In this document: piece after piece, positions 10,619-63,949 of the stretch
Layout of the letters: each line of letters begins with the position of its first letter
Numbering within the stretch: position 1 is the first letter of the stretch
NCBI RefSeq assembly: GCF_000735135.1
Contig: NZ_JPLZ01000006.1
Coordinates: forward strand, 744,001 to 808,000
DNA from: Chryseobacterium sp. FH1
GTDB lineage: Bacteria; Bacteroidota; Bacteroidia; Flavobacteriales; Weeksellaceae
Length of the DNA stretch: 64,000 bases
Direction of reading: 5' to 3'
Translations under genes and position numbers: made by a program
The notes under the pieces: model-generated
Told to the model about the DNA's origin: nothing
The model's database searches: none
What the model saw: only the letters and a program-made list of their open reading frames with translations

Positions 10619-10739
10619 ACCGCATAGGCACATAGAATTGTGATAAAAATGGTTGCTAAACTAAAAAAGAGAAAATAGAACATTTACTATTTTCTCTTTT
10701 TGTTTTTAAGACTGATAAAAATCTATGTGCCTATGTGGT
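10619..10739. repeat. Nested inverted repeat between convergent genes
   Basis: The outer arms are ACCGCATAGGCACATAG (10619-10635) and CTATGTGCCTATGTGGT (10723-10739), complementary at 16 of 17 positions. Inside is a separate terminator hairpin (10663-10701). The arms start right after one gene's stop and end 4 nt before the other's. Confidence 0.7.
10663..10701. terminator. Bidirectional terminator between lipoprotein gene and aroQ
   Basis: GAGAAAATAG (10669-10678) pairs with CTATTTTCTC (10687-10696). It is flanked by A6 upstream and T5 downstream, so it can end transcripts from both sides. Confidence 0.85.
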
Positions 10740-56362: not shown

Positions 56363-56520
56363 ATTTGTCATCCAAATAAAATTTCCAAACTTGATTGACG
56401 TTTCTTGACATCAAACAAGTTTTAAAAAATCACCACTTTGTCAAAGTTTCAAACCTTTGACAAAGTTTTTTAGTTTTAAAGAACATCCGAATTTTTATGC
56501 TAATTTAAAATCATTCCTAT

Positions 56521-56600
56521 CTTTGCTGAGTTTTACGTCCTTGCGAACCTTTAAACATTTAGTAATTAAAAAAAAATCTTTGCGGACTTTGCGTTTAAAT
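56521..56600 (+). repeat. TTTGCG-family intergenic repeat, copy A
   Basis: ACGTCCTTGCGAA (56535-56547), then AACATTTAGTAATT and TCTTTGCGGACTTTGCGTTT (56577-56596). It matches copy B (63125-63202) along its full length in the same orientation and ends 35 nt before the wbqC start. Confidence 0.8.
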
Positions 56601-60332: not shown

Positions 60333-60353
60333 CAGGATTATTAAAAACTATTG

Positions 60354-61244
60354 ATGAAAAACTATTTAAAATTAATAAGGGTAGAACAGTGGGTTAAGAA
60401 TCTATTTGTTTTTGCCCCATTATTTTTCTCTGGCTATATTGCAGTCCCAATTTTATTTTATAAAAGCGTTTTTGCGTTTATCATATTCTCTATTACTGCT
60501 AGTTCAATTTACATCATCAATGATTATTTTGATATAGAATCCGACAAAAAGCACCCTGAAAAAAAGAACCGACCTTTAGCAAGTGGCGCTATTTCCAAAA
60601 CCAGTGCTAAAGTTTTATTTGGATTTTTGGTTGCGCTTTCAATATCGCTTATTTTTTTAGGAAGTTATATTTTCGAGACTAATTATTGGAAGTTTGGAAT
60701 CATCATCGCTGCTTATTTTGTAATGAATATTTTCTACACATTCAAACTAAAGCACGTTGCGATCGTTGATATCTGCATTATCGCTTCAGGTTTTGTATTG
60801 AGGATTTTAGCAGGTGGATATGCCGCGGATATCCAAACCACGCAATGGGCGATTTTATTGACGTTCGTTTTGGCTTTGGTGCTAGCAATCGGGAAAAGGA
60901 GAGGAGAATTGATCAATGCACAAATCTCAGGAAAGACAAGGAAATCTTTGGATGGTTATAATGTTCAGTTTGCTGATATTGCATTGTCGATTTCTGTGAC
61001 TTTGGCAATTATCTGTTATTTGATGTTTACATTGTCACCGGAGATTCAGAAGAAATTTCACCCGAGGGTTTTTTACACCGTGATTTTCGTGGTATTCGCA
61101 TTTCTAAGATATTTGCAACAAACCTTAGTTTATAACAAAACCGAATCACCAACCAAGATCGTTTACAAAGACCGATACATCCAGATTACAGTTGTGCTTT
61201 GGGTCATCGTTTTTCTATTGCAAATCTATTTTAAAAAAGAATAA
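60354..61244 (+). CDS. Decaprenyl-phosphate phosphoribosyltransferase (UbiA family)
   Basis: 296 residues from ATG 60354. Transfers 5-phosphoribose from PRPP to polyprenyl phosphate, first step to polyprenyl-phosphate arabinose (Rv3806c-like). LIRVEQWVKNLFVFAPLFFSG, the metal-binding NDYFDIESDKKHPEKKNRPLASG (about 57-79) and DICIIASGFVLRILAGGYA (second Asp motif) are intact; about nine membrane helices. Followed by dprE1- and dprE2-like genes, which supports this specific role over ubiquinone-type prenyltransfer. Confidence 0.88.
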   Translation: MKNYLKLIRVEQWVKNLFVFAPLFFSGYIAVPILFYKSVFAFIIFSITASSIYIINDYFDIESDKKHPEKKNRPLASGAISKTSAKVLFGFLVALSISLIFLGSYIFETNYWKFGIIIAAYFVMNIFYTFKLKHVAIVDICIIASGFVLRILAGGYAADIQTTQWAILLTFVLALVLAIGKRRGELINAQISGKTRKSLDGYNVQFADIALSISVTLAIICYLMFTLSPEIQKKFHPRVFYTVIFVVFAFLRYLQQTLVYNKTESPTKIVYKDRYIQITVVLWVIVFLLQIYFKKE

Positions 61245-61271: not shown

Positions 61272-61325
61272 ATGATGAAGAGATTATGGGGATTAACTTT
61301 GACCTTAAAAAATACTAGCAGATGA
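61272..61325 (+). CDS. 17-codon open frame overlapping dprE1 start (tentative)
   Basis: Starts ATGATGAAG and ends in a TGA that overlaps the ATG of dprE1 as ATGA. It could be a leader peptide giving translational coupling, a decayed remnant of a gene, or chance. MMKRLWGLTLTLKNTSR is not like any protein I know. Confidence 0.2.
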   Translation: MMKRLWGLTLTLKNTSR

Positions 61326-62638
61326 AACCGAATTTTGTTCAAAAAGTCACCAATTGGGGAAATTTTCCAGTGGTAGAAAAAGAAATGAAGTCAGATGATT
61401 CTGTTTCGAAAATCAAACAATTTGTAAGAGATAATAATGAGGTCATCGCAAGAGGAAACGGACGTTGCTATGGCGATGCTTCTCTTGGCGAACATATTTT
61501 CTCAACCAAAAGACTCAATAAATTTATTTCTTTTGATAGACTCAATGGCGTTATCGAATGTGAAGCGGGCGTTTTGCTGTCAGAAGTTTTGGAGATTTCT
61601 GTTCCGCAAGGTTATTTTCTTTACGTGACGCCGGGAACCAAATATATTTCTATTGGAGGCGCAATCGCATCCGATGTTCATGGGAAAAACCACCATGCAG
61701 AAGGTTGCTTTTCGGAATATGTAATTGAATTTAAATTGGTGAACGAAAATGCCGAAGTCATCACTTGTTCACGTGAAGAAAACTCAGATAAGTTCTGGGC
61801 AACTATTGGCGGAATGGGATTGACGGGAATTATTCTCTCAGCCAAATTTAAACTGAAAAATATAGAATCTGCTTATATCAAACAAGAAAGCATCAAAGCT
61901 GAAAATCTGGATGAGGTTTTCCGATTGTTCGACGAAAGTGAAGATTGGACCTACAATGTTGCTTGGATCGATTGTTTCCAAAAAGGAAAAAATTTAGGTC
62001 GTTCAATTTTGATGAGAGGAGAACATGCTTTGAAAGCCGAATTGCCATCCAATCTTCAAAAGAAAACTTTGAAGCTGAAAGAGAAACCAAAACCAACGAT
62101 TCCATTTTATTTTCCTGGATTTGTATTAAATTCTTTGAGTATTAAGATCTTCAATTTCCTTTATTACAACAAGCAGACTAAGAAGCAACTCAATAATTTC
62201 ATTGATTACGAAACATTTTTCTATCCATTGGATGTCATTAATGATTGGAACAAGATCTACGGAAAAAGTGGCTTCATCCAATATCAAATGGTCATCCCGA
62301 AAGAAAATGGAAAAGAAGGAATGCGACAAATCCTTAATACCATTGCAAAAAGTGGAAACGGTTCTTTCTTAGCAGTTTTAAAGTTGTTCGGAAAAAACAA
62401 TCCACAAGCCTACAATTCTTTTCCAGTTGAAGGTTACACTTTGGCTTTAGACTTTAAAGTCAACAAAGGACTTCGAAAGCTGGTTGACCAACTCGATACA
62501 ATTGTCGAGAATTTTGGTGGAAAAATATATTTGACCAAAGACAGTATGAGCCGTTCATCTCTCACGAATTATCTTCAAAACGTTGATTCTTCGAAGTTTG
62601 TTTCACTTCAGTATAAGAGAATTGTCAGTGGAAATTAA
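61322..62638 (+). CDS. dprE1: Decaprenylphosphoryl-ribose 2-oxidase-like FAD enzyme
   Basis: 438 residues. Oxidises polyprenyl-phosphate ribose at C2. FAD-binding motifs GNGRCYGDASLGEHIF (about 43-58) and GGAIASDVHGKNHHAEG (about 116-132); the C-terminal block FGGKIYLTKDSM keeps the active-site Lys of DprE1. Where mycobacterial DprE1 has the benzothiazinone-reactive Cys387, this protein has Ala375 (TLALDF, codon 62444-62446). Works with the dprE2-like gene at 63224; separated from it by a GxxExxY gene and two repeats. Confidence 0.88.
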   Translation: MKPNFVQKVTNWGNFPVVEKEMKSDDSVSKIKQFVRDNNEVIARGNGRCYGDASLGEHIFSTKRLNKFISFDRLNGVIECEAGVLLSEVLEISVPQGYFLYVTPGTKYISIGGAIASDVHGKNHHAEGCFSEYVIEFKLVNENAEVITCSREENSDKFWATIGGMGLTGIILSAKFKLKNIESAYIKQESIKAENLDEVFRLFDESEDWTYNVAWIDCFQKGKNLGRSILMRGEHALKAELPSNLQKKTLKLKEKPKPTIPFYFPGFVLNSLSIKIFNFLYYNKQTKKQLNNFIDYETFFYPLDVINDWNKIYGKSGFIQYQMVIPKENGKEGMRQILNTIAKSGNGSFLAVLKLFGKNNPQAYNSFPVEGYTLALDFKVNKGLRKLVDQLDTIVENFGGKIYLTKDSMSRSSLTNYLQNVDSSKFVSLQYKRIVSGN

Positions 62639-62709
62639 ACGCAAAGTGCGCAAAGAATATTCTGATTATTGAAAATAGTCGATACGCAAAGACGCTTCGC
62701 TCATCAAAG
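62634..62709 (-). repeat. TTTGCG-family intergenic repeat, copy C (inverted)
   Basis: Minus-strand sequence begins CTTTGATGAGCGAAGCGTCT and ends with TCTTTGCGCACTTTGCGTTT. The first 29 positions match copy B at 25, and the last 22 at 18; the AT-rich middle is not conserved. It overlaps the dprE1 stop codon and lies 15 nt before the GxxExxY gene. Confidence 0.78.
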
Positions 62710-62724
62710 AAAAAGCACAAGATC

Positions 62725-63105
62725 ATGACTGAAAATGAAATTTCTAAAATTATTTTTGATGCTGGTCTCAAGATTCACAGAAAAATTGGGACTGGACTTT
62801 ACGAAAGGGTTTATGAGGAATGTCTCTATTATGAGTTGAAGAAGTCAGGACTAAAAGTTGAAAGACAAAAAAGTTTATCAATACAATATGAAGAGCTGAT
62901 GATTCCAGACGCTTTTCGAGTTGATTTGCTAATTGAAGAAAAGGTGGTTGTTGAATTAAAATCAGCCTTAGAATCTGGACAATCAATCTTTGAAGCTCAA
63001 TTATTAAATTATTTGAGATTAGGAAAATATAAACTAGGGATGGTTCTGAACTTTAATCTTCCTTTTTTCAAAGATGGTGTAAGGAGAATTGTAAACGGAC
63101 TATAA
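62725..63105 (+). CDS. GxxExxY protein (PD-(D/E)XK-like)
   Basis: 126 residues. The naming motif is G-L-Y-E-R-V-Y (about 27-33). A nuclease-like pattern follows: Asp in RVDLLIEEK and E-x-K in VVVELKSA (about 66-80), as in the PDDEXK_3 group. Activity unproven. The gene interrupts the dprE1-dprE2 order and is bracketed by inverted copies of the TTTGCG repeat, which suggests that gene plus repeats moved in as one unit. Confidence 0.88.
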   Translation: MTENEISKIIFDAGLKIHRKIGTGLYERVYEECLYYELKKSGLKVERQKSLSIQYEELMIPDAFRVDLLIEEKVVVELKSALESGQSIFEAQLLNYLRLGKYKLGMVLNFNLPFFKDGVRRIVNGL

Positions 63106-63124
63106 AAAATATAATATCAATTAA

Positions 63125-63202
63125 CCTTGATGAGCAAAGCGTCCTTGCGAATCTTAAAACATTAGTAATTCAAAAAAAATCCTTGCGAGCTTTGCGTTAA
63201 AG
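63125..63202 (+). repeat. TTTGCG-family intergenic repeat, copy B
   Basis: Begins CCTTGATGAGCAAAGCGTCC, has AACATTAGTAATTC in the middle and ends CCTTGCGAGCTTTGCGTTAA. Same orientation as copy A, opposite to copy C. It lies 21 nt before the dprE2 start. Confidence 0.8.
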
Positions 63203-63223: not shown

Positions 63224-63949
63224 ATGATAGTATTAGGCAGTAATTCCGAAGTTGCACAGGCGTTTGTAGAAGAATGTTTGGCGAAAGGCGAAAAATTCTC
63301 AACCATTTATCTCCTAAGTTCCAATCCGGAAACTACGGAGAAATTCGCTGGACATATTCAGGTGAAGTTTTTTCAGGATTCCGAGATTATTCCTTTGGAT
63401 CTGATGAATGACATCGATTATAAAACTCTGGAAAATATCAATTCTGATGTTCTGTTTTGCGCGACTGGCTATCTTGGTTTGGGAACTGAGGAAGGACTTT
63501 ACGATGATGAAAATACGGAAAGAATTATTGATGTGAATTATGCGAAATTAGTTCCTGTCCTCAACTTCTTCGCCAAAAAAATGGAATCCAAAAGAACTGG
63601 AACAATGATTGTGCTCTCATCTGTCGCAGGCGAAAGAGGAAGACAAAGTAATTTCATTTATGGTTCTGCGAAAGCAGCTTTAACAGCTTATTTGAGTGGG
63701 CTGAGAAATTATCTTTTCGATAAAAAAGTCCACGTGTTGACCGTGAAGCCAGGCTTTATAGATACCAAAATGACAGAAGGCTTACCACTGAATCCAGCTT
63801 TGACAGCAAGTCCGCATAAAGCGGCCGAAGGAATTTACAAAGCTTTTAAGAATAAAAAAGATGTCTCCTACGTTTTACCAATTTGGGCGATCATCATGCT
63901 AATCATTAGAAATATTCCTGAGTTTATTTTTAAAAAACTTAAATTATAA
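63224..63949 (+). CDS. dprE2: Decaprenylphosphoryl-2-keto-ribose reductase-like SDR
   Basis: 241 residues. Reduces the 2-keto intermediate to polyprenyl-phosphate arabinose with NAD(P)H. Short-chain dehydrogenase: VLGSNSEVAQAF at the N-terminus (DprE2-like variant of the glycine motif), FCATGYLG, VLSSVAGERGR with catalytic Ser, YGSAKAALTAY with Tyr/Lys, and VKPGFIDTKM. A hydrophobic C-terminal helix (about 220-240) fits membrane association. The assignment rests on the dprE1/ubiA context. Confidence 0.85.
   Translation: MIVLGSNSEVAQAFVEECLAKGEKFSTIYLLSSNPETTEKFAGHIQVKFFQDSEIIPLDLMNDIDYKTLENINSDVLFCATGYLGLGTEEGLYDDENTERIIDVNYAKLVPVLNFFAKKMESKRTGTMIVLSSVAGERGRQSNFIYGSAKAALTAYLSGLRNYLFDKKVHVLTVKPGFIDTKMTEGLPLNPALTASPHKAAEGIYKAFKNKKDVSYVLPIWAIIMLIIRNIPEFIFKKLKL

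Follow-up and report, generated by a model that had tools for sequence, protein, structure and literature searches.

Inverted Repeats Bracket a GxxExxY Gene Between Two DprE-like Genes

The window analysed here, a stretch of 64,000 nucleotides of Chryseobacterium sp. FH1, contains a gene for a 126-residue protein of the PD-(D/E)XK nuclease type (62725..63105, plus strand), which was assigned to the GxxExxY family by matches to the TIGR04256 and PF13366 profiles, by conservation and by a structure model. The genome is taken here as Epilithonimonas, and a near-identical locus is present in E. xixisoli. Upstream lies a DprE1-like gene (61322..62638, plus strand), identified by profile score and junction comparison, which hosts the insertion site, and downstream a DprE2-like gene (63224..63949, plus strand), identified by profile score. 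The preliminary description had named these neighbours dprE1 and dprE2; the likeness stands, but their scores, 395 of 500 bits and 142 of 250 bits, are both under the NCBIfam equivalog cut-offs. A UbiA-like prenyltransferase gene, recognized by eye, is found just upstream of the DprE1-like gene (60351-61244).

Two repeats of ~78 nt bracket the GxxExxY gene in inverted orientation inside the DprE1-DprE2-like pair. The left one, copy C (62634..62711, minus strand), belongs to the CGCAAAG family, which we call F1, and abuts the dprE1 stop codon; it matches our F1 repeat profile R1, built from 12 copies, with 39.9 bits (E 2e-11). The right one, copy B (63124..63202, plus strand), scores 69.9 bits. 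A solo F1 copy, A (56519..56600, plus strand, 73.9 bits), has a lepB-like gene on one side and a WbqC-like gene on the other, a junction that we compared across 23 genomes. The profile search recovers exactly the three copies first noticed by reading (A 74, B 70, C 40 bits), with no other strong copy in the window. The arms of B and C are complementary at 24/27 inner and 21/27 outer positions, close to the 25/29 and 18/22 outer-block matches reported earlier. When the 250-nt flanks of the gene are aligned, the local score is 34, beyond all of 5000 first-order Markov shuffles (mean 12.3, maximum 28), and this alignment together with the repeat profile confirms that inverted repeats flank the gene.

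The whole unit, brackets plus gene, folds as RNA with z = -4, the brackets pairing and the gene sitting in the loop. The word 'structured', applied to the repeat at the outset, therefore fits the pair but not the single copy. No Rfam match covers the repeats, and a known RNA family was rejected as their identity. A Flavo-1 RNA (RF01705; 56256-56361, minus strand, 69 bits against a cut-off of 42) shares the lepB-wbqC intergenic region with copy A. The window also holds, by pattern match, an unstranded inverted doublet of a second family, F2 (ACCGCATAGGCACATAG ... CTATGTGCCTATGTGGT; 10619..10739), whose cognate gene is located elsewhere in the genome (G000:C6:1104340).

The GxxExxY Protein Is a Predicted Nuclease under Purifying Selection

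The window protein matches TIGR04256 with 123 bits (cut-off 35) and PF13366 (PDDEXK_3) with 122 bits (cut-off 22). The latter is its sole domain match at E values up to 1, with neither the Y1 domain PF01797 nor S23 detected. Across 138 GxxExxY genes, the invariant or near-invariant residues are G22xG..E27..Y30, D67, E77-x-K79 and Q92-x3-Y96, with conservation of 1.00 for D67, 0.99 for both E77 and K79, and 99-100% for Q92. In the structure model (pLDDT 93), a D ... E-x-K triad lies in a restriction-endonuclease-like core. The best structural match is Cas4 (SSO0001, Pcal_0546; Foldseek E 8e-4, Z 8.8), followed by lambda exonuclease and Hjc, and restriction-enzyme folds are matched too; the PDB contains no convincing close sequence relative.

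The likeness to Cas4, lambda exonuclease and archaeal Hjc extends to the fold, the D-E-x-K triad and the Q-x3-Y helix. However, the conserved GxxExxY residues include no Fe-S cysteines, the gene has no CRISPR or recombination neighbours, and the protein is only 126 aa long. It models as a minimal Cas4/lambda-exonuclease-like predicted nuclease with an intact active site. The median dN/dS of 0.066 over 117 pairs indicates purifying selection and thus a working enzyme rather than a relic. The initial assignment to the PD-(D/E)XK-like proteins is borne out by the profiles, the conserved triad, the model fold and this selection. To our knowledge, GxxExxY/PDDEXK_3 proteins are widely annotated and have no known role.

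Brackets Accompany GxxExxY Genes and Follow the Protein Subfamily

GxxExxY genes are present in 22 of the 23 genomes of the genus, the exception being G015. All five in the present genome have inverted brackets, and the words are different for each gene (CGCAAAG, CACAAAGG, CGCAAAGGCGG, CGCAGATTTTGCAGAT and CCACATAGNCACATAG). We scored the brackets of 138 distinct GxxExxY genes from the genus and a wider sampling, mainly Bacteroidota, with 275 neighbouring genes and mismatched flank pairs as controls. The median inverted flank score is 27 for GxxExxY genes, compared to 13 for control genes (maximum 24; p 4e-43) and 15 for mismatched flanks. A bracket scoring above 20 is found at 76% of the 138 genes versus 4% of the 275 controls (p~1e-43). 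The bracket ends are built of tandem ~9-nt words with a frequent core, C-R-C-A-N-A-G, and CRCANAG words at GxxExxY genes point inward 295 times and outward 107 times, compared to 24 and 25 at control genes.

The repeats are also matched to their proteins. Within eight genomes that have several GxxExxY genes, 32 of 42 genes find their best match, by row and by column alike, in their own partner. The closer two proteins are in identity, the more alike their repeats (Mantel r 0.52, 0/2000 permutations), which is also true of genes at different genomic places (Mantel r 0.22, 0/2000 permutations), and cross-end repeat similarity stays at background below ~60% protein identity and climbs above it. 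It had been proposed to ask whether TTTGCG repeats flank GxxExxY genes more often than random genes. The enrichment of brackets is there, but each subfamily has another word family, so the brackets are not one TTTGCG repeat. There is good support for an association between the gene, its bracket and the dispersed repeats.

The same bracket design occurs in Ignavibacteria and on a Gemmatirosa plasmid, where the gene (L326, 1000-1800) has complete GC-rich CCGCAGAGG hairpins on both sides and, with a score of 73, the strongest bracket of all. In records from Sphingomonas, Treponema and Fusobacteria, brackets are missing or one-sided. On a Sphingomonas plasmid (L325, 1130-1680), the GxxExxY gene lies between fabD and fabG, a conserved gene pair, with CGCGAAG-type words upstream only. 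The gene is mostly chromosomal, with 8 plasmid records, and a phage origin was rejected, as the gene is matched in none of 50,697 phage records and in one viral contig.

The Gene Mostly Stays While Repeat Units Come and Go

We compared the dprE1-dprE2 junction in 22 genomes: the gene is present in four, gene-less remnants are left in three, and 15 have neither. The remnants (G018, G019 and G022) have lost the gene but kept the outer end on each side, and one of them has an other-family unit nested inside. The 15 remaining junctions contain other word repeats or are short. In G008, G013, G015, G009, G017 and G005 (L173, L175, L177, L181, L188 and L189), the words are of the TTGATGG/TTGTCGG type and resemble those beside S23 genes; since they fill the junction where other genomes have the GxxExxY unit, intergenic sites swap repeat families. 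Unit-free junctions in sister strains had been named as something to look for, and these comparisons supply them.

Orthologous ends at the dprE junction score 23-119, mostly 66-119, against each other, versus 31-52 when the left and right ends of a single unit are compared. Because orthologous ends are far more alike, the gene-bearing unit is old there and inherited, and its recent hopping at dprE was rejected. Across the 23 genomes compared, copy A is missing at the orthologous place in relatives that include G008, G004, G013, G012 and G020; a different clade has units of F1 or of another family at this site. Copy A had been described as a gene-free relative of the gene unit, and its gain or loss among close relatives fits that description. 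The idea that gene plus repeats form a small mobile unit survives in part: the repeat units come and go, but the gene mostly stays. A gene that is old and inherited at its own site points to a RAYT-like arrangement, in which a stationary gene accompanies spreading repeats, rather than to a hopping gene.

F2 Copies Are More Numerous Where Their Gene Is Present

The F2 family (ACCACATAGNCACATAG) consists of ~100-nt inverted doublets. In G005, the one genome counted, 52 of 63 F2 copies (83%) are inverted doublets, mostly with 72-103-nt spacing, and none are divergent. The doublets contain an inner inverted pair, and in the gene-bearing unit, the loop of this palindrome contains the gene. Genomes with the F2-linked gene carry 22-63 F2 copies and those without it 0-22; per Mb, the ranges are 8.5-18.8 and 0-6.2 (p 1e-4), although the genomes are related and the statistic ignores kinship. 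Sister-type contrasts run in the same direction, with 42 copies in G007 versus 12 in G003 and 63 in G005 versus 2 in G017. Cross-family controls gave no significant link.

We looked up ten solo F2 units of G007 in relatives. At seven of the ten sites, the whole unit is missing from some relative together with ~20-30 nt of DNA at either end, L264, L270 and L263 being the clearest cases, so whole pieces of ~140-165 nt are gained or lost at unrelated sites. At one site, L261, three species have three different units, and because families replace each other there, the site is not tied to any one family. The aligned sites showed, by eye, neither a target-site duplication nor an exact boundary.

For the other families, the copy-number picture is different. 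F1, the family of the window, has 29-93 copies in each of the 23 genomes, including 43 in G015 despite the lack of any GxxExxY gene, and its copy number has no link to presence of the dprE-type gene (p 0.55). F1 solos are single ends and not doublets. Being abundant independently of the GxxExxY gene, F1 was dropped as copy-number evidence for it. For F6 the link is weaker (p 0.005, a value from before L070 in G012 was recognized as an F6-type gene), and F5 has almost no dispersed copies, too few for the test. The link is thus shown for F2 only, and as the genomes are related, the p values are not fully independent.

Comparison with Known Repeat Systems

RAYT genes are flanked by inverted repeats (Nunvar 2010, PMC2817692), REP doublets are the spreading unit (Bertels and Rainey 2011, PMC3116915), and REPINs are more numerous where a RAYT is present (PMC8049555). 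The GxxExxY genes share the plan of a small, mostly chromosomal gene flanked on both sides by its own dispersed repeat in inverted orientation, with repeat and protein co-diversifying. Inverted doublets are seen here for F2, and higher copy number where the gene is held is seen for F2, weakly for F6 and not for F1 and F5. However, the enzyme is PD-(D/E)XK and not a Y1 HUH transposase (PF01797 is not matched), and its repeat ends are tandem CRCANAG-like ~9-nt words, whereas the RAYT repeat is a GTAG-tagged GC-rich hairpin. Lacking both a Y1 domain and repeats of the REP form, the GxxExxY system would work like RAYT/REPIN without being a member. Genuine RAYTs occur alongside these genes in the genus, and their repeats are different. 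The Y1 (RAYT-type) genes of Epilithonimonas have their own GTAG-style inverted hairpin brackets (median score 33; loci L330-L359), strong enough to show that Bacteroidota do contain true RAYT systems. These loci serve as a positive control, and none of the families F1, F2, F3 and F6 occurs at the Y1 genes in the 27 loci examined.

S23 genes (TIGR02436; L195-L224), ~5 per genome in the genus, also have inverted brackets, made of 7-nt words such as TTGTCGG, AGAATAA and GATAGAC. These are weaker than those of GxxExxY genes, yet above controls (median 19, p 3e-6). The S23 protein is unrelated in fold and lacks a nuclease motif. Like a 23S rRNA intervening sequence (IVS), the unit in the window carries a short ORF in the loop between its inverted repeats, and the S23 word brackets of the genus recall the heptamers that accompany the S23 ORF in the IVS of Coxiella (PMC4990558). 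The differences are that S23 words have 7 nt and GxxExxY words ~9 nt, that the IVS is located in rRNA, and that the window ORF matches PF13366 only and is not an S23 four-helix bundle. MITEs of DDE transposons offer another parallel, in that gene-less F2 copies retain the two ends seen in the gene-bearing unit. However, there is no DDE gene inside the window unit, no clear target duplication, and the gene is largely stationary.

A Two-Part Model for GxxExxY Genes and Their Repeats

Taken together, these observations suggest a previously undescribed repeat-spreading system that resembles REP/RAYT but uses an unrelated nuclease. We consider it probable that GxxExxY genes and their bracketing repeats form a two-part, RAYT/REPIN-like system in which the gene is stationary and gene-less units spread in trans. 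A vertically kept nuclease gene would occupy the loop formed by two inverted repeats, and its protein would recognize the tandem ~9-nt end words, with their C-R-C-A-N-A-G core, or the hairpin that they form. By cutting these, the protein may promote copying into new intergenic sites, so that units of the same family that lack the gene are distributed through the genome in trans; solo copies would then be gene-less derivatives and decaying remnants. The GxxExxY protein is most likely the spreader of the repeats, a movement that we infer from the comparative pattern.

The explanation that competes best, though we think it unlikely, is that the repeats are MITE- or REP-like elements moved by a RAYT or another transposase, with GxxExxY genes as cargo or chance settlers. 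RAYT-type Y1 genes do occur in 21 of 23 genomes, F1 thrives in G015, and the gene is apparently not hopping at its own site. However, cargo predicts neither a repeat type that tracks the protein subfamily nor the F2 copy-number link, and G001 has the most F6 copies yet no Y1 gene. As the 27 Y1 loci are bracketed by their own GTAG-type hairpins instead of the GxxExxY families, we rejected RAYT as the mover.

Somewhat less plausible again is a role in the service of the host, in which the word repeats, whether as DNA or as RNA hairpins, are bound or cut by the protein as part of regulation, the processing of mRNA or the upkeep of the genome, and the repeats spread by ordinary recombination and slippage. 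The strong purifying selection would suit such a role, as would the pairing of the brackets in RNA around the gene (z -4), which is reminiscent of the S23/IVS units excised by RNase III (PMC4990558). Against it, whole ~140-165-nt units are gained and lost at unrelated sites, and the gene is patchy between close relatives and absent from G015. Homing, in which the nuclease would cleave unoccupied intergenic sites and recombination there would copy in the gene-bearing unit, is very improbable: the nuclease fold and the alternative units at the dprE and lepB-wbqC junctions of different species would suit it, but F2 units lie at dozens of unrelated sites, the spreaders are gene-less units, and families replace one another at the L261 site.

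If the two-part model is extended beyond this genus, GxxExxY could represent a second class of repeat-disseminating enzyme that evolved independently, built on PD-(D/E)XK and acting on subfamily-specific ~9-nt word arrays whose hairpins are copied in trans. Such a class would span several phyla, its design being found in Gemmatimonadota and Ignavibacteria, and would be the source of many unexplained intergenic repeats. We put this forward tentatively, at rather less than even confidence. In the open-access literature (subscription papers lay outside the search), we found no account of such a system and none of the repeat words, and GxxExxY/PF13366 is scarcely mentioned.

The cognate repeats give GxxExxY/PDDEXK_3 a testable function, and the matched gene-repeat pairs inside one genome make recognition specificity directly testable. 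The link to GxxExxY also suggests where many of the dispersed intergenic repeats of Bacteroidota, for which we found no named mobilizer, may come from. If the model is true, these genes and their repeats would be a system convergent with RAYT/REPIN on an unrelated nuclease.
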